Positions 9,554-27,190 of a DNA stretch of 64,000 nucleotides are shown here, in pieces. The position numbers were made by a program, and so were the translations under genes. Location: positions 62,001-126,000 of the forward strand of contig CASDQW010000109.1 in the NCBI GenBank assembly GCA_949282965.1, given 5' to 3'. Source of the DNA: an uncultured Lentisphaeria bacterium. Lineage in GTDB: Bacteria > Verrucomicrobiota > Lentisphaeria > Victivallales > Victivallaceae. The first letter of the stretch is position 1, and every line of letters starts with the position of its first letter. The notes beneath the pieces were generated by a model. That model was not told where the DNA came from, did not search any database, and saw only the letters and a list, made by a program, of their open reading frames with translations.

Positions 9554-12511
9554 TCAGCGTCCGGTGGCGCTTTCGTCCGGCGCAAGGAGCAGCTGGACCG
9601 GAATACCGTGCCGGAAGCGGGCCGTGACCGCGGTATTGCCGTCTCCGGTCGGAACGGCCTGCGCCGCGCCGGAAAGAATTTTCCAGCCGCCTTTCAGCCG
9701 GACGGTTACCAGACGGTCGTCATCTTCCGTTTCCGGATAGGAGACGGCTTCTATGTCATTGGCACTGGAGTCGTCGCGTCGGAATCCGGCAAGATCGGGA
9801 GTGTTGAGGCTTAACGCCAGCCGGCCGTTCTCTTCGCGGAACATGACATATCCCGGCGTGTCGATCCCCAGCAGCGGACCGGTATGAAAATCCGGCTGCG
9901 GCAGAAACGCCGCCAGCGCGGTTACGCCGCTGCGGTGGTCCCGGACGGCATGACATCCGGCATCGCGGCGCAATACCGTATAGGGCTTGTCCCGCCTGAG
10001 CTGTTCCGCGAAGGCGGGCGCGTCACCGGGTTTCATGCCCGGCTTGATGACGAATTCGTACCCGGCATGATCCGGAGTGGTGCCGTGGTCGATGACACAG
10101 GCGGCCATCGGGCCTTCCAGCATTTTTTTATCCCTGTGCCGGGGTGAGGTGCTCTGTTTTCGTTCGAAGCGGACCGGGCCGCCTTCCAGTACGAACCACG
10201 CATTGTTGCGGAAATCCGCCGCCCAGAGGGGCGCGTTTCCGTTTTTCGCCACCGGCAGGGCGGTGATCGGCGTGGAATCGTTGAACCAGCCGGGCCGTTT
10301 GCCGTCCGGCCCGAGGTGATACTGGAAGAGGGTGGTTTCCACCGGGTTCCCCGCTTCGGAGGAGCGAATGTCGCTGCCGAGGCAGATAAGCGTGTCGCCG
10401 AAGGCGAAAACCGATTTGACCGCGTGAAATGCCGGGTCGTAATGCGGTTTGTCAGGTTCGGTAATGATCATGCCGAAGAGGCCGTAACGGCCTTCGAGAT
10501 TGCTGCTGCCGTTGATGCGGTTGTCCGGCAGAATGCGCATTTCGTGGCCCCGGCTCGGGGTGTCGAGCGTTTCCCACGGGCGGTGGATGGCGGTGACACC
10601 GGGAATGCGGTTCCAGTCCCAGCCCGCCGGGGAGTTGCCCTCCTCGTCCGGGGTGCCGGTGCCGAGAATGTAGATGGCACCGTAACTCAGATACCGTCCG
10701 AACCGGTTGTAGTCCTGGTAGATTTCACTGCCCCAGACATGCCGGTTGAAGCCTTTGAGCGTAATCAATGTTTCGCCGCAGCGGTGGAGACCGAAGCAGC
10801 CGTAGTTGAAGCTCCAATGACCTTCCGGTTTTTTCTCCTGGAGCAATGCGGTCATTTCCGGATCGCCGTCCTGGCGGTAGAGTTCGAGGCAGTCCGCGAT
10901 CTGACCGCTGTTCAACCGGCGGAACGGGACACGCCCCTCCAGTCCGATGGCGATGTACGGATTGCAATAAAGCCAGGCGCTGCGCAGTGCGCTTTTCAAC
11001 GCGTCGTCGGCCTTCCGGTCCAGCGCCCACGGCGTTCCGGCGAAGAGGTGACGGATCTGGGTTGCCCCGGTCAGGCCGCCGAAGGCATAGGAGGGATAAT
11101 GGCCCCAGTGGTGATAGACACAACCGTCCGGTTTGACGAACGGCACGGGTCCGGAAGTCGGATACAGGCCTTGGGAAATGAAGCGGCTGAAGGCGGCGAG
11201 ATAAGCCGCTTTTTCCCGGAATTCCGTATCCGGAATCAGCAGGATCGCAATCAGCGCGGCCCGCGCTTCGATATTGAAATAGTCGGCGCTGAGCGGGAAT
11301 TCCCCCGGAGGCAGCAGCACGGCATTGACGGTGTGATGCCAGAAGCCGGCGCGGCGGACGGCATCCCGGCGGCCGGTTTTTTCCAGCAGTTCGCGCATCA
11401 GAAAAAAGGAGTGATACAGTTCCCGGGTGCCGTAGCCGAGAATCGCCCGGGATCCCATGCTGGCGCCGTCGGCATATCCCTGGTCCGTCAGATGGTCGAT
11501 CAGCAGCAGATAGGTCTCCGCCAGTTCCCTGCGGATGGCTTCGTCCCGGGCTTCCAGATAGAGTTTCGCGGTCAGTTGGGCCATGGAGCCGAGACTGCGC
11601 AACGGCAGAAAATCCCGGAGCAGTTCCCGGCTCCCCGGAACCTGTCCATACTGGCGGGAGAGGACACCGTAGAGTATCGGACGACCGGTGACGTGGCCGT
11701 CTTCGTGGCGGATGATCTCATGGTCTTTCAGAAACTTTCTGACCGAACGCAGCGCCTGGTCAAAACCGGCACCGCGCAGTTTTTCCCGGGATTCCTCCGG
11801 GTGGATGAGTTCAGTCAAGCGCCGTTCCACAGCTCCGAGATGGCCGACCAGGGCGGACGGCACGGCGGCGGGAATTTCCGGGCGCAGCGTCTCCAGCGCC
11901 AGCGGATCGTGGGGCAGGGCGCGGATAAAGGGGGCGATGCGGTCGCGTTCCTGATAGCGCTCATAGGTGACCGTCCCGGGAATCACATCGTCGAAGAACA
12001 GTGTTCCCGCGGCATCCGCGGGAGCGCGGAAACGGATTTCATTCATCTCCTTGTTCGGTTTCCCCTGCATGTCGCGGCTGTAGACGGGCCAGAGGCGCCG
12101 CCAGCCGGTGAAATCAAGATTCATGTCGAACCAGCAGTCGTCTTCCGGCACGCCCTTGCGTCCGAACCCGACCCGCAGCTGTTTCCCGGGCAGGGGACGT
12201 TCGGAATAGACGTTCAAAGTCAGGATGCTGCGGGCTTCCGCACCATAATGGCGCGTAGCTTCCACATCGGTGAGAAACCATGGCGGAAAATCAAGCACGA
12301 GCGTGCCGCCCGGCTGAAAGGTCCAGCTCAGAGAGGATTTTCCACCGAGGTAGTGGCGGGTGGAGAGCGCGGCTTCCGAGCCGGCGGCGTGGACGGCGGA
12401 AAGCGCTTCCGGTTTCTCGAAATCAAGCATGCCGAAATCCACCGGAGCGGCCGTCGGTGAGACGGCGCTCCAGACGAGCGCGGCGGCGAAAAGCATTCCG
12501 GATACAGTCAT
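9554..12511 (-). CDS. Chondroitin ABC-type lyase, PL8 family
   Basis: A 985-residue exported polysaccharide lyase similar along most of its length to Proteus vulgaris chondroitinase ABC I. The signal peptide (about 1-21) is followed by a jelly-roll N-domain (about 25-180), an alpha/alpha toroid (about 190-560) and C-terminal beta-sandwich domains. Catalytic residues are all present: His468, Tyr475, Arg527 and Glu596 (in VWGSEIY). The 7- and 59-residue spacings match the Proteus enzyme exactly, while the Arg-Glu distance is 24 shorter. It should cleave chondroitin or dermatan sulfate by beta-elimination outside the inner membrane. The aldolase gene follows, and the heparinase-like gene precedes it with a 140-base gap. 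It has an AAAGGGA ribosome site. Confidence 0.93.
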   Translation of the reverse strand: MTVSGMLFAAALVWSAVSPTAAPVDFGMLDFEKPEALSAVHAAGSEAALSTRHYLGGKSSLSWTFQPGGTLVLDFPPWFLTDVEATRHYGAEARSILTLNVYSERPLPGKQLRVGFGRKGVPEDDCWFDMNLDFTGWRRLWPVYSRDMQGKPNKEMNEIRFRAPADAAGTLFFDDVIPGTVTYERYQERDRIAPFIRALPHDPLALETLRPEIPAAVPSALVGHLGAVERRLTELIHPEESREKLRGAGFDQALRSVRKFLKDHEIIRHEDGHVTGRPILYGVLSRQYGQVPGSRELLRDFLPLRSLGSMAQLTAKLYLEARDEAIRRELAETYLLLIDHLTDQGYADGASMGSRAILGYGTRELYHSFFLMRELLEKTGRRDAVRRAGFWHHTVNAVLLPPGEFPLSADYFNIEARAALIAILLIPDTEFREKAAYLAAFSRFISQGLYPTSGPVPFVKPDGCVYHHWGHYPSYAFGGLTGATQIRHLFAGTPWALDRKADDALKSALRSAWLYCNPYIAIGLEGRVPFRRLNSGQIADCLELYRQDGDPEMTALLQEKKPEGHWSFNYGCFGLHRCGETLITLKGFNRHVWGSEIYQDYNRFGRYLSYGAIYILGTGTPDEEGNSPAGWDWNRIPGVTAIHRPWETLDTPSRGHEMRILPDNRINGSSNLEGRYGLFGMIITEPDKPHYDPAFHAVKSVFAFGDTLICLGSDIRSSEAGNPVETTLFQYHLGPDGKRPGWFNDSTPITALPVAKNGNAPLWAADFRNNAWFVLEGGPVRFERKQSTSPRHRDKKMLEGPMAACVIDHGTTPDHAGYEFVIKPGMKPGDAPAFAEQLRRDKPYTVLRRDAGCHAVRDHRSGVTALAAFLPQPDFHTGPLLGIDTPGYVMFREENGRLALSLNTPDLAGFRRDDSSANDIEAVSYPETEDDDRLVTVRLKGGWKILSGAAQAVPTGDGNTAVTARFRHGIPVQLLLAPDESATGR

Positions 12512-12651
12512 CAGAGGTCCCTTTCTGCGGGTTCATGCATCAGACCGTCGGTTGACGGCGCATCTTTCCACAATAGCACCATTCCGTGACTTTTGCCAGA
12601 ACGAAATGAATCGGAAACAGGAAAATGCGAGCAACATTCCCCCGCCGACCA

Positions 12652-15039
12652 TCACGGCAGCGGCGGCAGGGGCGACTGATGAATGCCGTCCGCCCTTAAC
12701 TCCGCTACGGTCCGGCCGGTGGAATCAATTTCCTCAGCCATGAAGCGGCAGGATCCCCCCGGAAGAGTATGGCCCGGTACGGCGAAAGTGATCCGGTAAC
12801 GGCGACCATCGGCGGTCATGACGTCGATCCGAGTGGCGTCCAGCGTCGACTGCGACGTGACTGTCGGGGGCCGGGCACCGGTTTTCACCGGAGTAAGCAC
12901 GCTCAAAAATTCCGTTTCCCGGACCGGAGCAGTGACGGCGGTCAGGTGGAACTGGTCGACCATGTCCGGTGTGGCCTGTTCCCCGACCGGAGGATCGAAT
13001 CCGGAGAAAGTGCGGAAGGTCAACGACTCCGGTTTCAGAAAGCGGACGGGCATGGCGGCTTTCGGCCGCCGGATCACCACCGTCCGGTCCGATTCCGAAA
13101 CTTCCATCGGCTCCAGGGCGTGGAGCCAGTATTCAAAGCGGTGCGGCTCCGGCGCGGCGAGTTCATCGCGAATAATGAAGACTCCGGCCGGTTTCAAAAA
13201 GACGATGTCGCGGATCGCTTTGCTCAACCGCCTCCCGTAAGCGGGGGTCGCGTCCCCGCTGGTCAGCGTGAATGTTTCGCTGTCGACAAAATCGGTGATT
13301 TTTCCGGTTGCCTGCGGTCCCCGGTCCTGTCCCCGGCCGCCGTCGATGGTGATCGTGCATTTGGCGCGGGTGCTGCGGGTCCACTGGTCGTGGTGCGGGG
13401 AATCGTAATAATTGTAGTAGCCGGTCGGAACGGCCAGCGGCTCGCCGAAGGCTTCGATGGCGAAGGCGTTCTGGTCGTTGTGATTGTGGGAGACATTGCC
13501 GTAGGGATTGGCGTGGAATTTCATGCCGACGTGGTTTGCCCCGTCGGTCAGCGTGTTGCGCAGCACGGCCAGCCCGACATCGGCGAACAGCCGCGAGGTC
13601 GGCAGATCAGTGGGCGGAACGGCGGGAAAGTTGTCCTGGAGCACCATGGTCATGATGCCGCTGCGCATCAGACTCCGGGCTGCCTGCCCGTAATATTTGA
13701 GACGGCCATCCCGATTCAGCAGGCTGAAGACGTACACCAGATTGCCGTAGCGTCGCGGTGTCGCGGCAGCGGGACCGTCGCCGAAAACCCGGCGTTGCGC
13801 AAAGGGCGGTGCGCTGTAATACAGAAAATACGGCGTGTTTTTGAAGAAGGGTTTTTCGCCGAAATTCAATCCGATCGCCTGATTGACCGCGACGACGAAA
13901 TGCAGAATGAAATCCATGTAGGCAAACCAGTAATGCACCCCCTGACTCCAGCCGCCTTCCGGTCCACCCCAGTTGGGATAGGCCCCGTAATAGATGCGGA
14001 GCGCGTAATCGAGATACTTTTTCTCCTCCGGGTGTTCCGGAATCAGTTCGATGGCAGCCTCGCCCATGAAGCCGACGATGCGTCCGGCATGGCTGCCGAA
14101 GGGATCGCTGTCGAAGGGCCGTTTCCGCAGGAGTTCGTAGAATTGCCGGGTGCGTTCCAGCATTACTTCTTCGATTTTTTGTCGTTCCTCCGGCGTGTAC
14201 AGGTCATAGGTCCAGTCGTAGGTGCGCACCCCGCGCATCATCAGCCACATGGCCGGCTCATCGTTGTTGGCAAGCGACGTTGATCCGTTCGGGTCCCAGG
14301 AGAAGAAGTGCAGCAGCCGGCGCTTCGCCTCCAGCCCGGCCCGCCGGTCGCCGGTCAGAAGATAGGCGCGCGCCGCCTGTTCCATCTGGTCCATCGTCGG
14401 CCGGGTGGTGCGGTAGATGACGGCGTAGACGGCCATGCGGCTTTTGTCTTTCGGCAGAAACGGGGGTTCGGCGGCCAGTTTTTCACCAATATAGGAGTGA
14501 ACCCGCTTCAGCAAAGATTGCGTGATTTTGCCAAATTCTCCGGTCCTGGCGCGCCGTCGCAGGTCAGGCAGATCCTCGGCCTGGACAAAAAGCCGCGGCC
14601 GCCGGGCGGAAATACGTTCGGTGTATCCCGGCTCCGGGTACGGGAAAATACCGGCGTCGGGGGAAATCGAAAACGCGCGCGCACAACTCCAGACCACGCC
14701 GTCGGACGTTTCCATGCCGTAGCGCCAGAAATAGGAGCCGGGTTCAAAGGGCCGGGTGGGAACTTCAATGCGGTACTCCAGATCCCGCGCCTCGTAAACC
14801 GGTTTCCGAAAATTCTGATCCCGTGCCACCTGCAGCCTGTAACGCGCGGATTTCGGCTTGGCCGGCACCCAGCGGAAAGCCGGCGGATTGGTCAGCGACA
14901 TTTCACCCGGCCGCGGTTGATAATCCAGGTTTTTCCCGGGCACCGGCCGCGCATCGATGCCCAGGGATTCCGGAGTCGCCGCATTCAGGAAACCGGACAT
15001 GCAGACGAGAAGCGGAAGAACGACCCAGAAACACTGCAT
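12652..15039 (-). CDS. Exported DUF4962 / heparinase II/III-like protein
   Basis: A 795-residue exported protein. The signal peptide (MQCFWVVLPLLVCMSGFLNA) is followed by a fibronectin-like/DUF4962 N-terminal region (about 25-170), an alpha/alpha toroid (to about 470) with GSHAGR and GWSQGVHYWF motifs, and a heparinase II/III beta domain carrying SHNHNDQNAFAIEAFGEP near residue 515. Such proteins are polysaccharide lyases of the PL12/15/17/21-like clan; the exact substrate is not readable. The long frame extends to 15153, but only the ATG at 15039 gives a signal peptide and has GGAG in front. It sits between the pseudopilin and the chondroitinase, so a glycosaminoglycan or related uronate polymer is the likely target. 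Confidence 0.88.
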   Translation of the reverse strand: MQCFWVVLPLLVCMSGFLNAATPESLGIDARPVPGKNLDYQPRPGEMSLTNPPAFRWVPAKPKSARYRLQVARDQNFRKPVYEARDLEYRIEVPTRPFEPGSYFWRYGMETSDGVVWSCARAFSISPDAGIFPYPEPGYTERISARRPRLFVQAEDLPDLRRRARTGEFGKITQSLLKRVHSYIGEKLAAEPPFLPKDKSRMAVYAVIYRTTRPTMDQMEQAARAYLLTGDRRAGLEAKRRLLHFFSWDPNGSTSLANNDEPAMWLMMRGVRTYDWTYDLYTPEERQKIEEVMLERTRQFYELLRKRPFDSDPFGSHAGRIVGFMGEAAIELIPEHPEEKKYLDYALRIYYGAYPNWGGPEGGWSQGVHYWFAYMDFILHFVVAVNQAIGLNFGEKPFFKNTPYFLYYSAPPFAQRRVFGDGPAAATPRRYGNLVYVFSLLNRDGRLKYYGQAARSLMRSGIMTMVLQDNFPAVPPTDLPTSRLFADVGLAVLRNTLTDGANHVGMKFHANPYGNVSHNHNDQNAFAIEAFGEPLAVPTGYYNYYDSPHHDQWTRSTRAKCTITIDGGRGQDRGPQATGKITDFVDSETFTLTSGDATPAYGRRLSKAIRDIVFLKPAGVFIIRDELAAPEPHRFEYWLHALEPMEVSESDRTVVIRRPKAAMPVRFLKPESLTFRTFSGFDPPVGEQATPDMVDQFHLTAVTAPVRETEFLSVLTPVKTGARPPTVTSQSTLDATRIDVMTADGRRYRITFAVPGHTLPGGSCRFMAEEIDSTGRTVAELRADGIHQSPLPPLP

Positions 15040-15091
15040 AACTCCAAAAAACTCCTGTTGGTTAACGTTTATGGCGCTGTTCCGCGACCGG

Positions 15092-15892
15092 TTACCGGCA
15101 ATCCCAGTAGTTTTCCTGCACCGAGTTGTACCGGAAGAACGGGAAATATTCATAGAGCGGTAAATCGATCATGGCCTCGCCGGGCGTCTGGGCCGCGGAC
15201 AAAAGTTCGCTGCTGGTGTGGCCGTCCACATAGAGGACATTGACGGCATTTCCGTGACGGGCCATGGGACGGCCGCCCCAGGTTTTCCGGGTATCTTCGA
15301 CGATGTGCCAGCCGCGGCTCAGTTCGGCGGCGTCGAAATAGCCGGTGTCCATATGGGAAAACGTCTTGCTTGGTTTTTTGACCCGGGAATTTTTCTGCGG
15401 CGGCCCGAAGGTCCCGAATGCCGTCGTGTCGCCGACTTCGGTGATTCTGGCGGTGCTGCCGAGATTGCGGTAATTGTATCCGTAGTCAACCGATGTCAGG
15501 GCACTGGAAATCGGATACGTGGCGATGTTGCGATAGGCTTTGGATTTGAGCAGGTCGCTGCGGTTGGTACTGAGGTCCAGTTTCGCTTCCGGGCACAGGA
15601 ATTCCCGGGCGGACTGGACGTATTTCAAATATCCCAGCGCGCCGGCCCAGTAGAGCTTTTTCGTTTCTCCGCCGAACTGAAAGTTCTCCTGCTGATGGGC
15701 ATAGAAGAAATCGCCGCTGTCGAGCTGGTAGAAGGCGTTGTAATGGCCGAGCTGTTTGAGCGTGTTGATGCAACTGATCCGGCGTGCGGTCTGGCGGGCC
15801 TTGTTCAGGCCGGGCAGCAGCATGGAGGCCAGAATGGCGATGATGGCGATCACCACCAGAAGTTCGATCAGGGTGAAGTCTTTTCGTGTCAT
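15092..15892 (-). CDS. Prepilin-like protein with H-X9-DG motif (DUF1559-type)
   Basis: A 266-residue type II secretion/pilin-like protein. A short basic leader (MTRKD) leads to the prepilin cleavage/methylation site FTLIE and a hydrophobic helix (about 6-25). The globular domain ends with [14 protein letters not shown], an exact H-X9-D-G motif. It would be processed by a prepilin peptidase and anchored by the helix. Such proteins are greatly expanded in Planctomycetota and Lentisphaerota; their role is unproven. Here it is the first gene of the lyase operon (52-base gap to the next gene), suggesting a role in surface display or capture of the glycan. It has an AAAGGA ribosome site. Confidence 0.9.
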
Positions 15893-15959: not shown

Positions 15960-16025
15960 GTGAAAAAAAAACAAAAAAAATGATGAAAAGAACGTACTTT
16001 TTGACGATTTTATCAGGTTTCGCTG

Positions 16026-16054
16026 TTGTCATGACAATATGCCGCCGCTATATT
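16026..16054 (+). promoter_or_regulatory. Promoter and palindromic operator of the AraC gene
   Basis: TTGTCA at 16026-16031 and TATATT at 16049-16054 are separated by 17 bases. The -35 lies in a perfect 12-base palindrome, TTGTCATGACAA (16026-16037), a candidate operator, possibly autoregulatory. Confidence 0.6.
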
Positions 16055-16078
16055 GCAGGAGAATGGAACGAGGTGAAA

Positions 16079-16990
16079 ATGAGTGCGGAAATCACCCTGC
16101 TGTGGGACGGTGTCCCGTATCATCTGCTTCCGGAGGGAGTCAAGGGGCATCATCCCGTTTTCCCTCCGGGATTTGTCCCGTCCCGGCACACCCATCCGGC
16201 CTACCATCTGATTCTGGTGGAACGGGCCTGCTGCACGCTGCGGATTACCGGGTGTCCGCCGCTGCTGTGCCGGGAAAACACGCTGCTGCTGATCAATCCG
16301 AATGTGGAACACCGGTTTGTGTATACCGATCCCCGGGGATGCATGCACAGCGGTTTGATCTGGTATTTCGTCGATGCAGCGGGGCGGCACCTGCTGCGGC
16401 CGCTGCAGGAATTGGGCGGGCGCCAGGGCAAGGAGGCCCGACGGCCTTATGCGGCGGTGGTGCTTACGCCGGTGCAGGCGAGCCGTTTCCGGCTGCAGCA
16501 GCGCGAATGCGAACGGTTTCTGTCGCGACAGGATCCGGGGGTGTCATCGGTCAAATTCTTCAATCTGGTGACCCTCGGCATGGAGTTGCTGTGGGGAGGG
16601 CACTGGCAGAGCGACCGGGCATCGGGAGGGGAGAGTTCCGCCGGGGCACTGGTGGATCAAATCCGCATGCTCATAGAGATGAATTTTTATTACCGGCACT
16701 TCGATCTTCGGTATCTGGCCGAAGAGTTGAAGCTCAATGCCAACTACTTAAATACGGTATTCTCCCGGGAGACCGGCAGCGGCATCGCCACCGCGCTGCG
16801 GAACCGGCGTCTGGAGTATGCCCGGGAGCTGCTGAAAAACACTTCGCATTCCGTAAAATACATTTATGAGCAATGCGGCTTTTCCAGACAGAACTATTTT
16901 GCCGCAGCTTTCCGACGGGAAAGCGGCATGACTCCGCTGGAATATCGCCGGCACTTCGGCAATCCCGCTCCCGATGGGGAAAAATCCTGA
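16079..16990 (+). CDS. AraC-family transcriptional regulator
   Basis: A 303-residue regulator with an N-terminal cupin-like sensing domain (histidine-rich RHTHPAYH segment near 40) and a C-terminal double helix-turn-helix (about 200-295, LRYLAEELKLNANYLNTVF and VKYIYEQCGFSRQNYFAAAF). The frame is open to 15980, but the ATG at 16079 lies after a GAGGTG ribosome site and just downstream of the predicted transcription start, so it is preferred. It is divergent from the pseudopilin/lyase operon and most likely activates it in response to a sugar product. Confidence 0.92.
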   Translation: MSAEITLLWDGVPYHLLPEGVKGHHPVFPPGFVPSRHTHPAYHLILVERACCTLRITGCPPLLCRENTLLLINPNVEHRFVYTDPRGCMHSGLIWYFVDAAGRHLLRPLQELGGRQGKEARRPYAAVVLTPVQASRFRLQQRECERFLSRQDPGVSSVKFFNLVTLGMELLWGGHWQSDRASGGESSAGALVDQIRMLIEMNFYYRHFDLRYLAEELKLNANYLNTVFSRETGSGIATALRNRRLEYARELLKNTSHSVKYIYEQCGFSRQNYFAAAFRRESGMTPLEYRRHFGNPAPDGEKS

Positions 16991-17029
16991 AAAATTTGCC
17001 GTTCGGCACCGCGTTCCCTGACTTTTCCA

Positions 17030-17839
17030 TTACCGGGACGATGAGGTGGCATCGCGCAATGATCGGTAGGCCTCGAAATAGCGTTTGCCGAACTCCTGCT
17101 GACTCTTCCGGTCAAAATGGATGCGATCCCGGTTCAGGGTCAGACCATCGGACGGCACCAGCGCCGAAGGCGGAGAGGCATTCAGTGCCCTGCGCAGGGC
17201 AGCGTCGAACCGGCTGCGGTTTTCGCTCCATCGTCCCTTGGCCGGCCGGCTCAATTGTCCGGCGATAAAGGGCAGATCCGGCATTTGCAGGTCCCGGCGA
17301 AACGCTGCGATCATCCGGGTCAGGCGCGGTTCATATTCCGGAAGGCCTCCGGCATTGGCATCGGACTCACCCTGATGCCAGAGAATGGCTTTCAACGTGC
17401 CGTCCTGCTGGGCCCGCCGGGTACGTTGCACGGCGTCGTCATACGGATGGCTCCGGGTCTGGCGCCAGTAGGCGCCCGGCTCCCATTGGCGGATGGAGGA
17501 ACCGCCGCAGGCGGCCGGTATCAGGCCGACGGTGACGGTGGGATCGGCCGCAGTCAGGGCCCGGGCGAAAGACCGGGCCGGACCGACTCCCGCCCCGGGT
17601 TTGTCATAATGCACCGGATCGGTTGCCGGGACCCATTCTCCGGCGGCGTTGAGCATCAGGATTCTTTCATCCGGTTTGCGGTCTTCCGGCAGGACTTCTC
17701 CACGTCCGGCCATATTGGATTGCCCGGCCAGCAGGAAGAGGTGGAATTTTTCCTTGGGAGGCAGTTTGACCGCGTCGGCGGCGGACAGAATCATTGCCGA
17801 CATCAGAAGCAGCCATCCGAGAGTGGGTTTCCATGTCAT
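17030..17839 (-). CDS. Exported SGNH/sialate O-acetylesterase-like protein (CE6/DUF303)
   Basis: A 269-residue exported esterase. The signal peptide (about 1-21) is followed by the SGNH nucleophile block LLAGQSNMAGRG near residue 40, the oxyanion glycine (PAACGGSS) and the WHQGESD block near 155. The catalytic Asp-x-x-His DRIHFD lies near 240. Family members remove acetyl groups from xylan or sialic acids. It is convergent with the AraC gene and has a promoter at 17979-18007. It likely trims acetylated glycans for the neighbouring degradation systems; the exact substrate is unknown. Confidence 0.88.
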   Translation of the reverse strand: MTWKPTLGWLLLMSAMILSAADAVKLPPKEKFHLFLLAGQSNMAGRGEVLPEDRKPDERILMLNAAGEWVPATDPVHYDKPGAGVGPARSFARALTAADPTVTVGLIPAACGGSSIRQWEPGAYWRQTRSHPYDDAVQRTRRAQQDGTLKAILWHQGESDANAGGLPEYEPRLTRMIAAFRRDLQMPDLPFIAGQLSRPAKGRWSENRSRFDAALRRALNASPPSALVPSDGLTLNRDRIHFDRKSQQEFGKRYFEAYRSLRDATSSSR

Positions 17840-17978
17840 GGTTCCGTTTCCCTTTCATCATGTCCATGCCGCAGCGGACGGTTCAGCCGCGATGGCGCGA
17901 TCAATTTTCCATGCAGAAAGCATGTGAGGCGAAGCGGCATCGGCAACCCCGTAAGGTTGTCGGCAGCAGCGTCGGTTT

Positions 17979-18007
17979 ACCATACTGCCCGGGACAGGGA
18001 AATGCAA
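17979..18007 (-). promoter_or_regulatory. Promoter of the SGNH esterase
   Basis: On the minus strand TTGCAT (18007-18002) and TATGGT (17984-17979) are 17 bases apart. Confidence 0.55.
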
Positions 18008-18142
18008 GTCATCCTCCGCAGACGCCGGAGGGATCACACCGGTAGCCGATGTGATGGCGACGATGGCGTATGGGGCGGGACAGATGCATTGTCGAGCGTA
18101 CCGGAGAGTGGAACGAAGAGGCGATCGGAAGCGGAAATGTGC

Positions 18143-18170
18143 TTGACTTTTCGCAGTTGCACGGTATTTT
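18143..18170 (+). promoter_or_regulatory. Promoter of the MFS transporter
   Basis: TTGACT (18143-18148) and TATTTT (18165-18170) have a 16-base spacing. The -35 is followed by TTTCGCA, also seen after the -35 of the 49.4-kb minus-strand promoter. Confidence 0.6.
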
Positions 18171-18221
18171 ATGCACATTTAAAATGCTGTCGGTGATTCA
18201 ACAGGAAGGAGCCGGGCCGGA

Positions 18222-19466
18222 GTGAACCGGAGAGCTTTGCATTTCGGACGTTATGATTACGCCGCGTTTTCCGCTTCCGTAACCTATGCGTTGTGTTCGC
18301 TGTCCATTCCGCTGATGATCGTGGCAATGGGCGAAGATTTGAATTTTCCGCTGGACCGGGGAGGAATGGCCGCCGGAGGTGTGCTGCACCTGGTGCGCAG
18401 CGTGACCATGGTCGTGGCGCTGCTCCTCTGCGGGACCATTGCCGGCCGTATCGGCAAGCGTTTTTCCATGGGGGAATCGCTGCTCTTGATGGGAGGAGGG
18501 ATTTTTCTCTGTTCGCTGGCGCCCGCCTACTGGATGTTGATTCCCTGTCTGTTGATTGCCGGATTCGGCGAGGGGATCTGCGAGGGGATTGCCACCCCGT
18601 TTGTGCAGGATCTGCATCCGGATGCGCCGGAGCGGTACGTCAATATCGCGCACTCTTTCTGGTCAGTCGGCATCGGCGCGGTGGTGGTGTTCGTCGGGGG
18701 GCTCCGGGCATGGGGGGTGAACTGGCGCATCATCCTGGCTGTGATCGGGATTTTGACGCTGTTGACTTCGCTCCTGTTTTTGTGGCGGGAACATCCGGCG
18801 CGGAAATATCCGGAAACCCGCGGAGGCGTTACTTTCCGGGAGATCTGGCGCTATTCTCTGGCCATTGTGAAGGTGCCGCAGTTCTGGATTTGCTCCATGG
18901 CCATGTTTTTCGGTGCGGGGGCGGAATTCGGGTTGACCTTCTGGGCGGCAGCCTATGTGCAACTTCATTTTCATACCAGCGCCTGGGTGGCGGGACTGGG
19001 AACCGGAGCGATTGCGCTGGGAATGTTTCTGGGGCGGACCGGGTTCGGTTATTTTGCCCGGCCGGAATATCTGCGTTATATTCTGCTGGGGACGGGGCTC
19101 GGTACGATTCCGGTTACCTTGCTGCTGGCGTTTCTGGAGCCGGGATGGCTGCCCGGCCCCTGGGTGCTGGTCCTGCTGTTTTTGCTGCTGGTGCTGGCCG
19201 GGGTCGGAGTGGCACCGTTCTGGCCTACGACGCAGGTGTACGGCGTGTCGCACATGCCGCAGCTGGATTCGACGATGCTGTATATTTATTTTTCCGCCCT
19301 GGGGATTCCCGGATGCGGTTTTTTCACCTGGCTGATGGGGGTGCTGGGGGATCATTTCGGGTTGAAGGGGACGATTCTGGTGGTGCCCGGCTGTCTGCTC
19401 TGTTTCGTGGCGATTATTTACTGGGAATGCTGGGTGCTGGCGAAGTGGCGGGCTTCCCGGCAGTAG
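18222..19466 (+). CDS. MFS transporter
   Basis: A 414-residue major facilitator with about 12 hydrophobic helices. The loop between helices 2 and 3 carries a GRIGKRFS-type motif. The second half contains a fucose/glucose-permease-like architecture (PFWPTTQVYG, GCGFFTWLMGVLGDHFG). It starts with GTG after AGGAAGGAG. The fucosidase gene begins 110 bases downstream on the same strand, so import of fucose or a related monosaccharide is a reasonable inference; substrate is not proven by sequence. Confidence 0.88.
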   Translation: MNRRALHFGRYDYAAFSASVTYALCSLSIPLMIVAMGEDLNFPLDRGGMAAGGVLHLVRSVTMVVALLLCGTIAGRIGKRFSMGESLLLMGGGIFLCSLAPAYWMLIPCLLIAGFGEGICEGIATPFVQDLHPDAPERYVNIAHSFWSVGIGAVVVFVGGLRAWGVNWRIILAVIGILTLLTSLLFLWREHPARKYPETRGGVTFREIWRYSLAIVKVPQFWICSMAMFFGAGAEFGLTFWAAAYVQLHFHTSAWVAGLGTGAIALGMFLGRTGFGYFARPEYLRYILLGTGLGTIPVTLLLAFLEPGWLPGPWVLVLLFLLLVLAGVGVAPFWPTTQVYGVSHMPQLDSTMLYIYFSALGIPGCGFFTWLMGVLGDHFGLKGTILVVPGCLLCFVAIIYWECWVLAKWRASRQ

Positions 19467-19576
19467 CCCGATCCGGGATGATGTGGGCGGAAAGCTGAGG
19501 CGCAAAAAGTTTTCTGCGGGCGGATACGGAACGCCCCATGCATAATGAAGCACCAAGTACAGAAAGGAAGCGGAAT

Positions 19577-20857
19577 ATGACGGCAGTCTGCGGCGACAAG
19601 AGAGGCGACATCGGATGGTTTGTGCACGACCGGTTCGGAATGTTCATTCACTGGGGACTGTATGCCATGCCCGCCCGGCACGAATGGGTGCGCAATTACG
19701 AGGGAATCCGCGATCCGGATTATCAGATTTACTTTGAGCTGTTTGAGCCGGATCTTTTCCAGCCCCGGGAATGGGCGCGGGCGGCGGCGGCGGCGGGAAT
19801 GAAATATGTGGTCATCACCACCAAACACCATGAAGGCTTCTGTCTCTGGGACAGCCGCTATACTGATTACAAAGCCACCCGCACTCCCGCCGGGCGCGAT
19901 CTACTGCGGGAGATGGTGGATGCCTTCCGGGCGGAGGGCTTGCGAATCGGTTTTTACTATTCGCTGCTGGACTGGCACCATCCTGATTTTGTCATCGACC
20001 GGCTGCATCCGCACTTCTCCGATCCGGACCGGGAGGCGCAGAATGCGGGGCGCGATCCCCGGCGCTATGCGCAGTACATGCGCGATCAGGTGACGGAACT
20101 GCTGACGGAATATGGGAAAATCGACATCATCTGGTTTGACTTCTCCTACCCCGGTGAAAACGGCAAGGGGCGGGATGACTGGGAATCGGAGAAACTGCTG
20201 CGTCTGGTGCGGGAATTGCAACCGGAGATCATTGTCAACAACCGTCTCGACCTGCCCGGTATGGGAGATGTGCTGACGCCGGAGCAGTTTATGCCGGAGG
20301 AATGGCCGAAAGACGAGAAGGGGCAGCCCGCCGTCTGGGAAGGGTGTCAGACGTTTTCCGGATCCTGGGGGTATCACCGGGATGAGAACACGTGGAAGTC
20401 CCGCCGGATGTGCATTGAAATGCTGATCAATCACGTCAGTCGCGGGGGCAATCTGCTGATGAATGTAGGGCCGACCGCCCGGGGATATTTTGATGCGCGG
20501 GCGCTGGATCGGCTGGAAGGCTTTGCGGAATGGATGCACTATCACAGCCGTTCGATTTACGGCTGCACGGCGGCTCCGGATGAATGGCGGGCGCCGCAGG
20601 ATTGTCGTTACACCTGGAATCCGGAGACGCGGCGGCTTTATCTGCATGTGTTCGCCTGGCCCTACAAGCATGTGCGGCTGGCGGGGCTGGGCGGCAAAGT
20701 CCGCTATGCGCAGCTGCTCAATGACGGCAGCGAGCTCCGGCGCCCGCACGATCAGATGCTGGTGTCTCAGGTAAAGACGGCCCGGGAGGATCTGGTGCTG
20801 GAACTGCCGGTTACGCCGCCGCCGGTAGAGGTGCCGGTCATCGAGTTGTTCCTCTGA
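19577..20857 (+). CDS. Alpha-L-fucosidase, GH29
   Basis: A 426-residue glycoside hydrolase. The GH29 landmarks are FGMFIHWG, the substrate-binding KHHEGFCLWDS, YYSLLDWHHPD, and the nucleophile Asp188 in the block IIWFDF. RGGNLLMNVGPT is the late conserved block. No signal peptide is seen, so it appears cytoplasmic, acting on imported fucosides. The frame extends upstream to 19538, but the ATG at 19577 lies about 8 bases after AAAGGAAG. It follows the MFS transporter and ends in a bidirectional terminator. Confidence 0.93.
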   Translation: MTAVCGDKRGDIGWFVHDRFGMFIHWGLYAMPARHEWVRNYEGIRDPDYQIYFELFEPDLFQPREWARAAAAAGMKYVVITTKHHEGFCLWDSRYTDYKATRTPAGRDLLREMVDAFRAEGLRIGFYYSLLDWHHPDFVIDRLHPHFSDPDREAQNAGRDPRRYAQYMRDQVTELLTEYGKIDIIWFDFSYPGENGKGRDDWESEKLLRLVRELQPEIIVNNRLDLPGMGDVLTPEQFMPEEWPKDEKGQPAVWEGCQTFSGSWGYHRDENTWKSRRMCIEMLINHVSRGGNLLMNVGPTARGYFDARALDRLEGFAEWMHYHSRSIYGCTAAPDEWRAPQDCRYTWNPETRRLYLHVFAWPYKHVRLAGLGGKVRYAQLLNDGSELRRPHDQMLVSQVKTAREDLVLELPVTPPPVEVPVIELFL

Positions 20858-22219: not shown

Positions 22220-22256
22220 CGAAAAAAAAGACGGCCGGAAAGATTCCGGCCGTCTT
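22220..22256 (-). terminator. Terminator of the 27-22 kb minus operon
   Basis: The perfect 13-bp stem AAGACGGCCGGAA / TTCCGGCCGTCTT (22228-22240 with 22244-22256) has an AGA loop, and on the minus strand is followed by a T-run. Confidence 0.9.
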
Positions 22257-22272: not shown

Positions 22273-23301
22273 TTATTCCACTTTCAGATTGCGGATTTCG
22301 ATTCCGAAGTCCGCGCCGGGTTTCGGCGTGCAGAAAATGAAGTCGATTCCGGTGACCGCGTCGGGGCTGCCGCCGTCAACGACGTTGCCTTCCCAGCGGA
22401 ATTCGCCATTCTGTCCCACCGCCAGAGTGACCGGGGTCCATTCCAACGGCGGCGGCGCTTTGAAGAAGCTCATCACCGTTTTCTTGTTGGCGGCATCATA
22501 CGCCCGGATGTATACCTGGCTGGTCGGTCCTACTGCGCGCATGTCGAACGACAGTTTCTTCTGCGTCATATTGATCGGTTCGGCGAAATTCAGAACGATC
22601 CCTTCATAGCGGTTGAGTTGCTTGTATTCCACCGCGGACTTGCCCATGATGCGGATGGCGCCGTCTTCAACGGTGACGACCGGGGTCTGCGAAAAGCGCG
22701 ACCGGGTCTGACTGGTGTAGGTGCCGACCCCCGCGGTAGCTTTGATCATGGCGTCACGGGGAGACGGGACGATTTCCACCGATTTGACCTTGAGGTTCAT
22801 TTCCTTGCCGCCCTGCGGAGTACCGACATGGAACTGAATCCGTTTGACGGAGCTGGGCGCGGCGCCGGAGACGACCCCTTTTTCCCAATCCAACGCACCG
22901 TTTTCATCGGGTACCAGCAGAATATCGGCGTATTCCGCCGTCAGTCTCGGCCGCCAGGTCTGGAAGCTCCAGACCGGTTTTCTCAGGTCGCCGGCGTTAT
23001 AGGCGCGCACGTAAAAGCCGCGCACGACGTCCGGCGTATCGGTCTTGACGCGGATTTTCAACGCCTTGCCGGTCAAATCAAGTTCTTCCGGGAGGTCGAT
23101 GTTGAAGGAGAGATAACGGTTGCCCGTCCCTTCTGCCGCAGTAACGCCCTTGAGTTCCGCGGTGAGGAGGCCGTCTTCCTCCATCAGGGTGCCGACGTCG
23201 CCCTGCGCTTTTTTCAGCATGTCCGGCTTCAGCGGCAATGCTTCGGCGAACAGAGCGCCGGAAATCATTCCGCACATCAACACGGCAAACAATTTGGTCA
23301 T
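22273..23301 (-). CDS. Exported two-domain beta-sandwich protein
   Basis: A 342-residue exported protein without a recognised catalytic domain. The signal peptide (about 1-20, ending LFA-EA) is followed by two carbohydrate-binding-like beta-sandwich units. The first (about 25-190) has VYVRAYNAG-type and VSGAAPSSVKRIQFHVGTP blocks; the second (about 200-342) has VYIRAYDAANKK and GGSPDAVTGIDFIF. The same unit occurs twice at the N-terminus of the upstream lyase. The ATG at 23301 follows AAGGAGGTGG, only 34 bases after the lyase stop, so it is co-transcribed. It probably binds the polymer that the lyase cleaves. Confidence 0.82.
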   Translation of the reverse strand: MTKLFAVLMCGMISGALFAEALPLKPDMLKKAQGDVGTLMEEDGLLTAELKGVTAAEGTGNRYLSFNIDLPEELDLTGKALKIRVKTDTPDVVRGFYVRAYNAGDLRKPVWSFQTWRPRLTAEYADILLVPDENGALDWEKGVVSGAAPSSVKRIQFHVGTPQGGKEMNLKVKSVEIVPSPRDAMIKATAGVGTYTSQTRSRFSQTPVVTVEDGAIRIMGKSAVEYKQLNRYEGIVLNFAEPINMTQKKLSFDMRAVGPTSQVYIRAYDAANKKTVMSFFKAPPPLEWTPVTLAVGQNGEFRWEGNVVDGGSPDAVTGIDFIFCTPKPGADFGIEIRNLKVE

Positions 23302-23335
23302 GGTGGGCCACCTCCTTGGGGTTGGTTTATGTATT

Positions 23336-26300
23336 TTACGGAGTTTCCGCATAGGGACAGAAGAGAAAAGCATCGCCGGGTTCGAGGCGCAATACTTCGT
23401 CAGGATGCAGTTGCAGCCGGACTTTGCCGTCCCGCTGTTCTGCACCAACCAGCCGGTATGCGCCGTCCCGTCGCGACGGAATGACAAGATAGTTGTTGCC
23501 CGCCGGTATCTTCGGCGGCGTAGACAGGTCGGTGGTCAATACTTTCGCATCCGCATCGACGGCGAGGATCTTGCCGTGTACAGTCCGGCCGGCGTCCAGG
23601 CGTTTCCCGTCGGCCTCCACACTGCCGTCGACACACCAGAGTCGGGCGACTTTGCCGGCTGCGTCGAAGCGGATGACGGCGGCCCGGGCATTCAGGCGCA
23701 GCTGCGGATATCCCTGGAGCCGGACGTCGCCGGAGCCGGAACCGCTCAGGACGATCAGGTCCGTGCCGCCGTCCCGCAGTTGCACCCGGAGCGCGGTCCC
23801 CGGCCGGCTGTCCGGTGCGGTCGCGACCGGCGCAACATCCTGCAGGGGCGACTGGCCCCTGGGGCTGGAGGCCAGAACGGAAGCGAAGGTATTGTCCGGT
23901 CCCGCGGCGCGGGCCAGCAGCAAATTGAGCTTGATTTTCAGGTACGGTGTCTGCTGGTTGCGCAGTCCCGGGGCATCGGCGCAGAGCAGCTCCATCGGTT
24001 TTTCGGCCAGAAAATACTGGGTGGTGACGAGATCGTCGTCGTATTGCCAGCTGGCACGGTACACGCCGGGGGCGACGGTGGCGGCGCGAAGATTCTGAAG
24101 CCATTCGACACCGGTGCCTTTTTCCGCGTCGATCCGGGCGGGTTTGAAATCCAGGTCCTCCGGAGGCGTGAAAGTTTCCCCGTCGGCGTGGAACGTCCAG
24201 ATGTGTTCCCTGCCGCCGCGGACCGTGAAGAAGTCCGCCAGATACTGGCGATGGTCCGGCAGGGGAATCGCAAAAATCGTCCGGGCGTATTCCTCCGTCA
24301 CGCCGGGATAGGCCTTCGGCGCATTGAAGCGTGCCGCCAGCACGTCGCCGGAGCCGGTGAAGAATTCCGGAACGCCGATTCTGGTTTTCTGCTGTACTTT
24401 GCCGTCCACCACGACGAGGTTGTGAGCAAAGGTGGAGTTGTTCCAGGTGCGGTTGTCATGCCACCAGGATAGATACCCCAGATCGCTGACCACTTCTTTC
24501 CCGAAATCGCAGTACAAATAGTTCAGCGTGCAGTTGTGTGAATGGCCGCCGACGTCGCCGCCGAAGTAAAGCATCACCGCACTGTCCCGGTAAGTTTCCG
24601 GTCGGCGCAGCAGTGCCCAGCCGCCGCCGGGGAAGAGGAGGCTGCGGGTGAAATCTTCCGGCGCGGTCTCTTCCGCCTTCCAGTCGGCGTCGCGCTTGAG
24701 AACGGTAAATTCCCGTCCCCACCGGACCGGAAATTGTTTGGCCATGTAACCGAGCATCTTCCGGTTTTCCGGGGTCGGCTGGAGTGCCGCCAGCGTTTCC
24801 AGCTGGGCGATGCTCTGGCGGGCGGAAAAGGAGGAGTCGTTGACTGCCGGCAGTGCCCCGGTCGGCAAGGTGCCGGGCGCCATGCCCGAAAAAATCAGCT
24901 TCAGCGTCGGCGCCGCCCGGAACACGTCAAAGTTGTCATACCGGTCCTCCTTCTGATAATCGGGTGCGTCCGTATACCCCTGCAGGGCGCAGACCAGATT
25001 GATCATCGGATCGTTGGCCATATTGGCATAGGAGGGGGCGTTTTCATACCAGTGGCCGTCGCGGTGGTAGTATTTTTCCAGGAAGGCGAAAAATCCTTCG
25101 TCTCCTTTCAATACCCAGTCCATGAGTTCATGATCGCCGAGGATGGCCGCGCAGAGTGCGGCCGTGGTCATGTGGGCGGGCACGGCGTTGAGGCACCAGT
25201 CCTTGGTTGGCGGATAGGCTGTGATCAGCCACTTGTATTCCCGGCAGATGCCGTTTTCCACAGCGAGCTTGTCCGCATCGGAATAAGCGCCGCTGTCGTG
25301 GGTCAGGCAATAGGCGTTCAGCAGGGCGGGCAGCCGGACGCTGTCATGATATTTCCAGGCGCAGAGTTTCCCGCCCATATAATGCCCGCGCGGTGATTCA
25401 TACGCCGTGGCGCGGAATTTGACCGAGTAGTCGGGGTAGACTTCCGCAAACCGCACCAATACGTCCCGGACCCGTTCGGCGTAGGCCTTGTCGCCGGTCA
25501 GGGCATACATCATCGCGGTATCGTAAACGCGGCCGAGAAAACTTTGCTTAACGTAATTGACCGCGCCGGAAAGGTGGTAACGGGGACCGTAGTTTTCCCC
25601 CTGGGCGATCTGGTCCTTGCCATGATAATAGTGGATGGTTTTGACTTTGCCGCGAGGGGTTTTGATGGTATAGCTGGAACTTTCCGGATACTGGTCGTTG
25701 GGAAACACCATGCCGCATTTGGTACAGCGGATGGACTTCCAGTCCGGCTGGAGGACGTCGGGCCCCGCCCAGGCGAATTCCGGCTGGGTGCCGCAGTTCG
25801 GGCACAGACATTTGAACCAGGCGTCCTCGGCGGGAATCAGCAGTTTGATTTCCTCCGGGGTGCGTTCCATCCAGAATTTCGCCCGTTCCCGGATGCCGTC
25901 CAGAATTTCCCGGTTTTCGGGTTTTTTCAGGTTTTCCCGGGCCCGGAGAATGTCGGCTTCTTTAACGGAACCCGCCGGATGACGGACGTTGGCCGGCCGG
26001 TCCGCGTATTCCGGTACGGGCTTCCAGCGCATCGTCGCCGGAGCCTGAGCGGCCGGAAGCAGTTCAAAATCGGACAGCGTGACTTCCACCGGTGCGTCCG
26101 GCACGGTGGAGCCGACCCAGAATTCAAAGCGGGTGACGGCATCCTCGCCTTGGCCCGATGCGACTTCCGCCTGCCAGGTCAGCGGCGTGCCGTTTTCCCG
26201 GGCCAGTTGCGCGGTGACGGAGGAGGCGCGGCTGAACGGTGTTCCCCACTGCATGAAACTCCAGGCCGGTTTGGTGGCGCCGCCGCTGAAAAAACGCGCC

Positions 26301-27094
26301 GCCAGAGCGATGATCACATCCGGGGTCGTAGTGCTGATCCGGAATTTCACCATCTGGCCGGTAAGGTTCATGGGACGGGGCAGCCGGACTTCACCGATGA
26401 AATAGTTGGTGTTTTCCTGTTTGCGGGTCATGCCGGAAAGGTGGAACGACCCGTCTTTTACTGAAAATTCCGCATTGCGACCTTTCAAGTTGGCCGGATC
26501 AAAAAATGCCGCGGGAATTTTCCCCGGTTCATCGGCAACTTCTTCCGGCGCATCCTCCAGCGTGAAGTCGCCCACTTCCATTTCCAGCGGCGTGTCGGCT
26601 TCCCGGCTGCCGATCAGGAACTGAAGCCGGTTGATCCGGTCCGGCTCCGCTCCGGAAACGACCTGCGGCTCCCAGCGCAGCGGTGTGGCGGTTCCCGGAT
26701 GGCGCAGGAGAATCCGGGCCGAGGAGGAATCCTTGAGCAGATGCTGATAGTCGAAAAAACTCCAGGCCGGTTTTTGTTCTCCGGCATTGAAGGCGCGGAC
26801 ATAGATTGCGAGAATGTTTTTGCCTTTCGGGCTGGTCAGCTGGAATTGCAGTTGTTTGCCGCGCAGATCAAGCGGCTGGGCAAATTCCAGGGAAAAGGAA
26901 CGGTACTGGGCGGATTTTCCGGCGACGGGACCGGTGACGCCGGTCAGGTGATACCAGGTTTTTCCGTCTCTGACAACCGCTTGGACGTTGCCGCTTTCCG
27001 GTCGGATTTTCGTCTGTTGAAAAAGATCGGCGGCCTCGGCGGCAGCCAGCATGGACAATGAACCGGACAGCAACAACAAATTCCTCCATCTCAT
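23336..27094 (-). CDS. Exported heparinase II/III-like lyase with binding repeats and zinc ribbon
   Basis: A 1252-residue exported protein. The signal peptide (about 1-22) is followed by two beta-sandwich repeats (about 25-200 and 205-360), a linker, then an alpha/alpha toroid (about 370-800). Inside it lies a Cys4 cluster, CLCPNC near 430 and CTKC near 455, that looks like a zinc ribbon. The heparinase II/III beta domain has GGHSHNCTLNYLYCDFGKE near 850 and WNNSTFAHNLVVVDG near 890. A C-terminal tail has small beta modules. The start at 27094 has a weak ribosome site but is the only one giving a signal peptide. Polymer specificity is unknown. Confidence 0.85.
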   Translation of the reverse strand: MRWRNLLLLSGSLSMLAAAEAADLFQQTKIRPESGNVQAVVRDGKTWYHLTGVTGPVAGKSAQYRSFSLEFAQPLDLRGKQLQFQLTSPKGKNILAIYVRAFNAGEQKPAWSFFDYQHLLKDSSSARILLRHPGTATPLRWEPQVVSGAEPDRINRLQFLIGSREADTPLEMEVGDFTLEDAPEEVADEPGKIPAAFFDPANLKGRNAEFSVKDGSFHLSGMTRKQENTNYFIGEVRLPRPMNLTGQMVKFRISTTTPDVIIALAARFFSGGATKPAWSFMQWGTPFSRASSVTAQLARENGTPLTWQAEVASGQGEDAVTRFEFWVGSTVPDAPVEVTLSDFELLPAAQAPATMRWKPVPEYADRPANVRHPAGSVKEADILRARENLKKPENREILDGIRERAKFWMERTPEEIKLLIPAEDAWFKCLCPNCGTQPEFAWAGPDVLQPDWKSIRCTKCGMVFPNDQYPESSSYTIKTPRGKVKTIHYYHGKDQIAQGENYGPRYHLSGAVNYVKQSFLGRVYDTAMMYALTGDKAYAERVRDVLVRFAEVYPDYSVKFRATAYESPRGHYMGGKLCAWKYHDSVRLPALLNAYCLTHDSGAYSDADKLAVENGICREYKWLITAYPPTKDWCLNAVPAHMTTAALCAAILGDHELMDWVLKGDEGFFAFLEKYYHRDGHWYENAPSYANMANDPMINLVCALQGYTDAPDYQKEDRYDNFDVFRAAPTLKLIFSGMAPGTLPTGALPAVNDSSFSARQSIAQLETLAALQPTPENRKMLGYMAKQFPVRWGREFTVLKRDADWKAEETAPEDFTRSLLFPGGGWALLRRPETYRDSAVMLYFGGDVGGHSHNCTLNYLYCDFGKEVVSDLGYLSWWHDNRTWNNSTFAHNLVVVDGKVQQKTRIGVPEFFTGSGDVLAARFNAPKAYPGVTEEYARTIFAIPLPDHRQYLADFFTVRGGREHIWTFHADGETFTPPEDLDFKPARIDAEKGTGVEWLQNLRAATVAPGVYRASWQYDDDLVTTQYFLAEKPMELLCADAPGLRNQQTPYLKIKLNLLLARAAGPDNTFASVLASSPRGQSPLQDVAPVATAPDSRPGTALRVQLRDGGTDLIVLSGSGSGDVRLQGYPQLRLNARAAVIRFDAAGKVARLWCVDGSVEADGKRLDAGRTVHGKILAVDADAKVLTTDLSTPPKIPAGNNYLVIPSRRDGAYRLVGAEQRDGKVRLQLHPDEVLRLEPGDAFLFCPYAETP

Positions 27095-27161: not shown

Positions 27162-27190
27162 ATCATAATTCTGCTTTCGAAAGTTGTCAA
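27162..27190 (-). promoter_or_regulatory. Promoter of the lyase/beta-sandwich operon
   Basis: On the minus strand TTGACA (27190-27185) and TATGAT (27167-27162) are 17 bases apart, a near-consensus promoter. A perfect palindrome CTTTCGAAAG (27174-27183) lies in the spacer and could be an operator. Confidence 0.75.

Follow-up and report, generated by a model that had tools for sequence, protein, structure and literature searches.

Organisation of the two-gene locus

We analysed a 64,000-nt stretch of DNA (hereafter, as a whole, the window) from an uncultured Lentisphaeria gut bacterium, in which two adjacent genes share a repeat unit of about 150 amino acids. The upstream gene (23336..27094, −) encodes a heparinase-II/III-type polysaccharide lyase of 1252 aa, identified by PF07940 and opening with two units, L1 (26534..27043, −) and L2 (26036..26530, −), both located by alignments and profile. 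The downstream gene (22273..23301, −) is an open reading frame for a 342-aa protein formed by two more copies, both detected by profile, with no further domain. Its first unit, S1 (22747..23244, −; residues 20–185), is a beta-sandwich in an AlphaFold2 model and by fold matches, and its second, S2 (22276..22740, −), placed by alignment and a two-unit model, is the most divergent of the four. The coordinates assigned to both proteins in the preliminary description of this DNA were correct in an open-reading-frame check.

The two genes are separated by 34 nt. A promoter-like site (TTGACA-17-TATGAT; 27162..27190, −) lies 67 nt upstream of the lyase ATG and matches 11 of 12 consensus positions; the region holds four such sites in total, against 1.4 expected. 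A terminator-like 13-bp stem followed by a T run (22228..22256, −) stands directly 3' of the small gene, whose ATG is preceded at nine bases by AAGGAGG (23311–23317). Given the short gap, the promoter-like site before the genes and the terminator-like site after them, the simplest reading is that the pair would be transcribed as one two-gene unit. Direct reading showed a hydrophobic N-terminus with an AxA-like end (LFA-EA) in the small protein and a hydrophobic, signal-peptide-like N-terminus in the lyase, with a lipobox in neither.

Predicted activity of the lyase and its genomic surroundings

To characterise the lyase, we compared it with family models and solved chains. The results showed a match to PF07940 (5.7e-9; 36.3 bits) above the gathering cut-off of 24 bits, and a match to the oligoalginate lyase model NF042990 of PL17 (6.8e-18; 64.3 bits) far below its equivalog cut-off of 1400. 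The core (residues 518–961; 24212..25543, −), delimited by Pfam, NCBIfam and solved-chain matches, aligned with the solved alginate lyase AlgL17 (9irq) at 3.1e-18, and N636, H641, Y689, H851 and H853 were invariant across five aligned lyases. The same five lyases retained all four cysteines of a Cys4 zinc-ribbon-like stretch (CPNC...CTKC; residues 428–473; 25679..25813, −), which was located by sub-threshold Pfam and NCBIfam matches. The likeness to AlgL17 and NF042990 lies in the aligned catalytic core, whereas the two extra N-terminal units and the zinc-ribbon-like stretch set the window lyase apart.

The genes near the pair include a PL8-type lyase, a second heparinase-type lyase, an alpha-L-fucosidase, an MFS transporter and an AraC regulator; no SusC/D-like transporter was found in the ten neighbouring frames scanned. 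Judged from its sequence, the window lyase probably cuts acidic sugar chains, and its substrate is probably a uronic-acid polymer, because its core is nearest to AlgL17 and because the PL8-type lyase, the heparinase-type lyase and the fucosidase are close by. The neighbouring gene set would fit acidic glycans of animal or algal origin. Roughly 7 kb past the pair, the PL8-type lyase (PF09092/09093/02278) adjoins a DUF4962 and heparinase-II/III lyase (9554–15153, −); together with the regulator, transporter and fucosidase at 15980–20857, these genes resemble a locus for the utilisation of acidic glycans. The genome itself, a 2.8-Mb MAG, gave a high number of heparinase-II/III C-terminal matches (21, 17 of them above the cut-off).

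Homology and conserved residues of the repeat unit

We aligned the four units pairwise by Smith-Waterman with 1,000 shuffles per pair. Every pairing gave a z between 9 and 33, with S1 and S2 at 26; even the weakest pair, S2–L2 (z 9; 30/130 identical), scored 77, where the shuffles reached 55 at most. On the strength of these alignments all four units are homologous, as the preliminary description had proposed in reporting one unit four times in two adjacent proteins. A profile of the four copies found ten places in the genome, namely the four window units and six others, and a profile widened to 72 copies, run on 7,172 reversed open frames, gave no match at E<=1. The description had also claimed that all four share one motif. 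S1, L1 and L2 are indeed close to W-S-F and V/A-S-G...R-I/L..F..G, but S2 departs from parts of it (M-S-F, V-D-G and an ending F-x-F-C), so that "all share" is loose.

Over 88 copies, with residues numbered as in the S1 model, the best-kept positions were Tyr44 (79/88), Arg/Lys80 (74/88) and Ser93 (71/88); an aromatic residue at 94 (74/88) and Trp120 (63/88) were also well kept. A conserved aromatic and basic set, Tyr44, Tyr78, Arg/Lys80, Tyr/Phe82 and Trp97, alternates with core residues along the predicted strands, which would place these side chains on one face of the model. This surface may be used in binding, though the most conserved residues of the unit could be structural instead. With net charges between −1 and +1, the four window units are not clearly basic.

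Predicted fold and structural neighbours

The S1 model, built with AlphaFold2 from an alignment of 17 units from the window and named genome contigs, had a mean pLDDT of 88.1, a pTM of 0.84 and ten strands, predicting a two-sheet jelly-roll-like sandwich of ~130–170 residues. This model gives confident support to the beta-sandwich suggested earlier. A model of both units of the small protein together (322 residues; 7 aligned rows) reached a pLDDT of 80.4 with a weak linker, and the strand order was identical in both halves, so the two predicted folds are related. Its fold-search rows span 1–192, mainly the first half, and the fold assigned to S2 is therefore read from strand order alone. The structural list of this model included a Bacteroides SGBP-B (Z 9.8, 3.3 Å, 130 residues).

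A Foldseek search of solved structures with S1 returned 76 chains at E<=0.001. Among the best 50 of the 76 were CBM11, CBM30, CBM16, CBM15, CBM86 and CBM4, and the search also returned accessory domains of agarases and other glycosidases. In VIA-align, where absence of a family from the lists does not exclude it, CBM11, CBM15, CBM29 and CBM30 superposed at Z 11.0–11.6 (rmsd 2.8–3.7 Å over 126–147 residues; CBM11: Z 11.6, 3.7 Å, 146 residues), alongside an exo-beta-agarase accessory domain (Z 12.2, 3.8 Å, 150 residues) and the N-terminal domain of chondroitin sulfate lyase ABC (Z 11.0, 3.3 Å, 137 residues). The two top rows were a virus turret (8qpg; Z 14.8, 2.7 Å, 144 residues) and a complex I assembly module (7zkq; Z 13.0, 3.7 Å, 157 residues), neither entered as a carbohydrate binder. 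Because both rank above the CBMs, the fold by itself is no proof of sugar binding. A BFVD fold search returned only viral tail and turret-like proteins sharing the common fold. As modelled, the unit has its nearest solved structures mostly among CBMs and accessory domains of carbohydrate enzymes.

The unit resembles CBM11, CBM15, CBM29 and CBM30 (6r3m, 1gny, 1oh3, 1wzx) in predicted overall fold and, like them, is an accessory module of exported carbohydrate enzymes; it differs in its attached enzymes, in a sequence identity of 7–14% and in having no significant Pfam model, and it is known here from predicted structure. In the PL8 chondroitin sulfate lyase ABC (2q1f), likewise a uronic-acid lyase, the N-terminal domain is a beta-sandwich with 10% identity to the unit. 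Profile comparison of the unit with the N-terminal domain of the PL8-type lyase in the window gave no match (probability 0.5%).

We also searched for a family name by sequence. None of 47 representative units matched Pfam or NCBIfam with E below 0.03, and none of the four window units gave a match above cut-off. Solved chains gave no match to the unit by sequence or by profile, an acid phosphatase at E 0.043 being the best profile hit; no occurrence was confirmed in the viral contigs searched, and no paper describing the unit was found in the open-licence literature. The earlier failure to recognise a named carbohydrate-binding family thus held for the libraries searched, in which no profile match to an established CBM family appeared. 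The best reading of the model and searches is a CBM-like family that lacks a name in Pfam, NCBIfam and the solved chains.

Carriers and distribution of the unit

To survey the proteins that carry the unit, we examined 52 stretches with 3,325 open frames and found 88 units in 68 frames. Carriers were sorted by Pfam for some and by similarity and length for the remainder: heparinase-II/III-type lyases held 18 units, propeller proteins of ~1,400–1,750 aa held 23, unit-only proteins 20 and others 27. Several of the "other" carriers are ~930–1,090 aa long with weak propeller-like matches. In the ~1,400–1,750-aa carriers the C-terminus matches lambda-carrageenase beta-propeller and FG-GAP models. 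A conserved family of ~1,400–1,800-aa exported proteins (L045, L062, L067, L169, L174 and others) combines the unit and a C-terminal beta-propeller with a conserved middle part that has no Pfam name and contains VHNHLTF-like and GGHxHxDG-like motifs; they are possibly an undescribed lyase family. A heparinase-like core, suspected in the ~1,500-aa carriers from the motifs N-H and GGH-H, did not show up in a profile comparison (E 0.23), and against solved chains their match was confined to the beta-propeller.

Complete unit-only genes numbered 14, a count that leaves out three apparent frameshifts, frames cut by contig ends and frames with at least 70 residues of other sequence. The three were two-unit proteins (G011:C58, L063/L088; G011:C99, L061/L086; G001:C127, L074) that appear to be frameshifted N-termini, since in each the larger protein runs on in an overlapping next frame; they were kept off the pair count. 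The apparent frameshifts follow the second unit (L088:7911-11737, L086:7734-12007, L074:1-1808) and are either assembly errors or real breaks.

Nearly all complete carriers have their first unit directly behind the signal peptide, beginning about 35–80 residues from the start; in three frames (L060, L072, L082) a unit lies near the C-terminus. Such a fixed position would suit a structural spacer that binds no sugar and sets the catalytic domain off from the membrane or cell surface, with the small protein a by-product of duplication, and PMC11216935 argues that DUF1735, a similarly placed beta-sandwich domain, is a spacer. We consider this explanation unlikely. The 14 free-standing proteins of one or two units have no other domain and hence nothing to space, DUF1735 carriers are, in the same paper, mostly lipoproteins whereas the window proteins lack a lipobox, and the nearest structures are mostly CBMs.

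The distribution of the unit was assessed by three scans. The four-copy profile found it in 14 of 100 genomes of relatives (own genome counted), and a 47-row profile in 22 of 387 genomes of the phylum, the extra genomes belonging mostly to other families of the class and two lying elsewhere in the phylum. A lyase-based scan of genome contigs fetched 52 loci with related lyases; the unit was present at seven of them, of which six are Lentisphaeria/Victivallales MAG loci and the seventh carries a Spirochaetes label. Most of the related lyases elsewhere are thus without it. The Spirochaetes-labelled MAG (UWPOB_SPIRO2) encodes a unit-bearing lyase (L091:7965-11312) with 50% identity to the window lyase over the best segment, reflecting either transfer or a mislabelled MAG. 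Among 33 whole genomes reached via 33 of the 52 loci, a non-random draw, 14 carry the unit somewhere. The labels of the unit-bearing MAGs include Pirellulales, Rhodopirellula, Verrucomicrobia, Armatimonadetes, Zipacnadia and Victivallales, and 17 stretches from those genomes contained 17 unit-bearing frames, 12 of them in the ~1,400–1,800-aa family (two cut by the stretch end). The unit reaches Verrucomicrobiota, Planctomycetes and Armatimonadetes; the phylum-wide and whole-genome scans ruled out a trait confined to Victivallaceae.

Pairing and descent of the small protein

To assess how often free units accompany a larger carrier, we inspected the neighbours of the 14 unit-only genes. Eight, at five loci, either directly adjoin a larger gene with units or belong to a run that such a gene closes: one in the window, one in G002, two at G011:C85 (about 23 nt between the genes) and, on G011:C5, a cluster of three plus a single gene in a second cluster, where the gap to the larger gene is about 270 nt. 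The other six (L046, L070, L073, L078, L080, L177) are without a unit-bearing neighbour, L078 having unit-bearing genes 3 and 8 kb downstream. G002 keeps both the lyase and the small protein, the latter at 88% identity, but this pair is not independent because G002 belongs to the same genus as the window. No small partner was found at the fetched unit-bearing lyase loci other than the window and G002; the G001 contig ends inside the lyase. As a separate arrangement, L072:7613-9272 shows a tandem of three single-unit exported proteins (171–174 aa) followed by a 925-aa unit-bearing protein.

A tree of 88 units over 136 columns, in which many forks are weak, placed S1 with unit 1 of the G011:C85 small protein (95/95) in a group that includes one long lyase row (L061). 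The neighbour of the G011:C85 protein is a ~1,600-aa protein, a putative enzyme different from the window lyase. L1 and L2 grouped with units of other lyases (97/96), and S2 stood apart, grouped solely with its orthologue. The best tree forcing S1 and L1 together was 21.9 log units worse, which disfavours descent of S1 from its own lyase even though the AU test did not reject it (p 0.082). At two other loci a free unit was sister to a unit of its neighbour (100/71 and 100/100).

These results bear on two further explanations. If the small protein were a trimmed copy of the lyase N-terminus with no function of its own, the two-unit layout common to both proteins and the unrejected grouping of S1 with L1 would be accounted for. 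We hold this to be highly improbable, given that the small protein begins with a signal peptide of its own, that its gene has a ribosome-binding site and an unbroken frame, that it is conserved in the same-genus genome, and that S1 groups with the first unit of another locus's small protein.

Alternatively, the units could be assembly modules, the free two-unit protein scaffolding the enzyme by binding either its units or a surface partner common to both. One unit family on both neighbours, the eight unit-only genes beside larger unit-bearing genes and the sister units at two of the five loci would agree with this. Against this, we found no dedicated partner domain; the units are strongly diverged, as S2 and L2 show, the window pair gave no sign of pairwise matching, and the fold neighbours are chiefly glycan binders; on balance we judge assembly to be quite unlikely.

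The preliminary description had interpreted the pairing as a binding protein matched to its own lyase. The pairing is supported in part, with the genes close together between promoter-like and terminator-like sites and kept in the same-genus genome. A special match to this lyase is not supported, because the unit family is far wider and S1 groups with a small protein from another locus.

Proposed function

We infer glycan binding, the substrate class, co-transcription and the role of the free protein from the findings above, and consider it rather probable that the predicted sandwich is a CBM-like module, present in tandem on the lyase to hold acidic polysaccharide and in a free glycan-binding partner. 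In this scheme the exported lyase would be held on acidic polysaccharide by the two units behind its signal peptide and would cleave linkages of uronic acids. The two-unit protein, presumably co-transcribed but exported separately, would assist without catalysis by binding the glycan on which the lyase acts, or one close to it, and either capturing or presenting it. The recurrence of the unit with heparinase-type lyases and beta-propeller proteins, behind a signal peptide, provides supporting context for binding; the six free-standing proteins without a unit-bearing neighbour count against the proposal. In another lyase family, removal of the N-terminal beta-sheet domain of chondroitinase ABC alters activity and substrate choice (PMC10197112), and the N-terminal CBM of pneumococcal hyaluronate lyase binds hyaluronan (PMC4175358).

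Binding modules and free glycan-binding partners are a known kind of component; the unit family itself is unnamed. Free glycan-binding partner proteins occur in Bacteroidota as SGBP-B and SusE/F. Like them, the window protein is a non-catalytic, multi-module exported protein encoded beside an enzyme; it differs in lacking a lipobox and a SusC/D-like transporter in the ten frames, and in having other modules.

More tentatively, the unit might define an undescribed, broad CBM family of Planctomycetota-Verrucomicrobiota groups and Armatimonadota, with N-terminal fusions to lyases and beta-propeller proteins and free two-unit partners beside such enzymes, the enzyme being swapped between loci; we regard this as possible but short of probable. 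The arrangement would be SusE/F-like and lipoprotein-independent. Little is known of how the many lyases of gut and environmental bacteria in these phyla grip their substrates. An unnamed binding-module family on exported lyases would help to annotate blank proteins of 950–1,800 aa. The 342-aa protein, small and probably soluble, lends itself to glycan-array and structural work. Prepilin-like genes often lie beside or near unit proteins (L073:8000-8785, L078:8051-9800, L059, L080, L046), and may simply be common in genomes with the unit.
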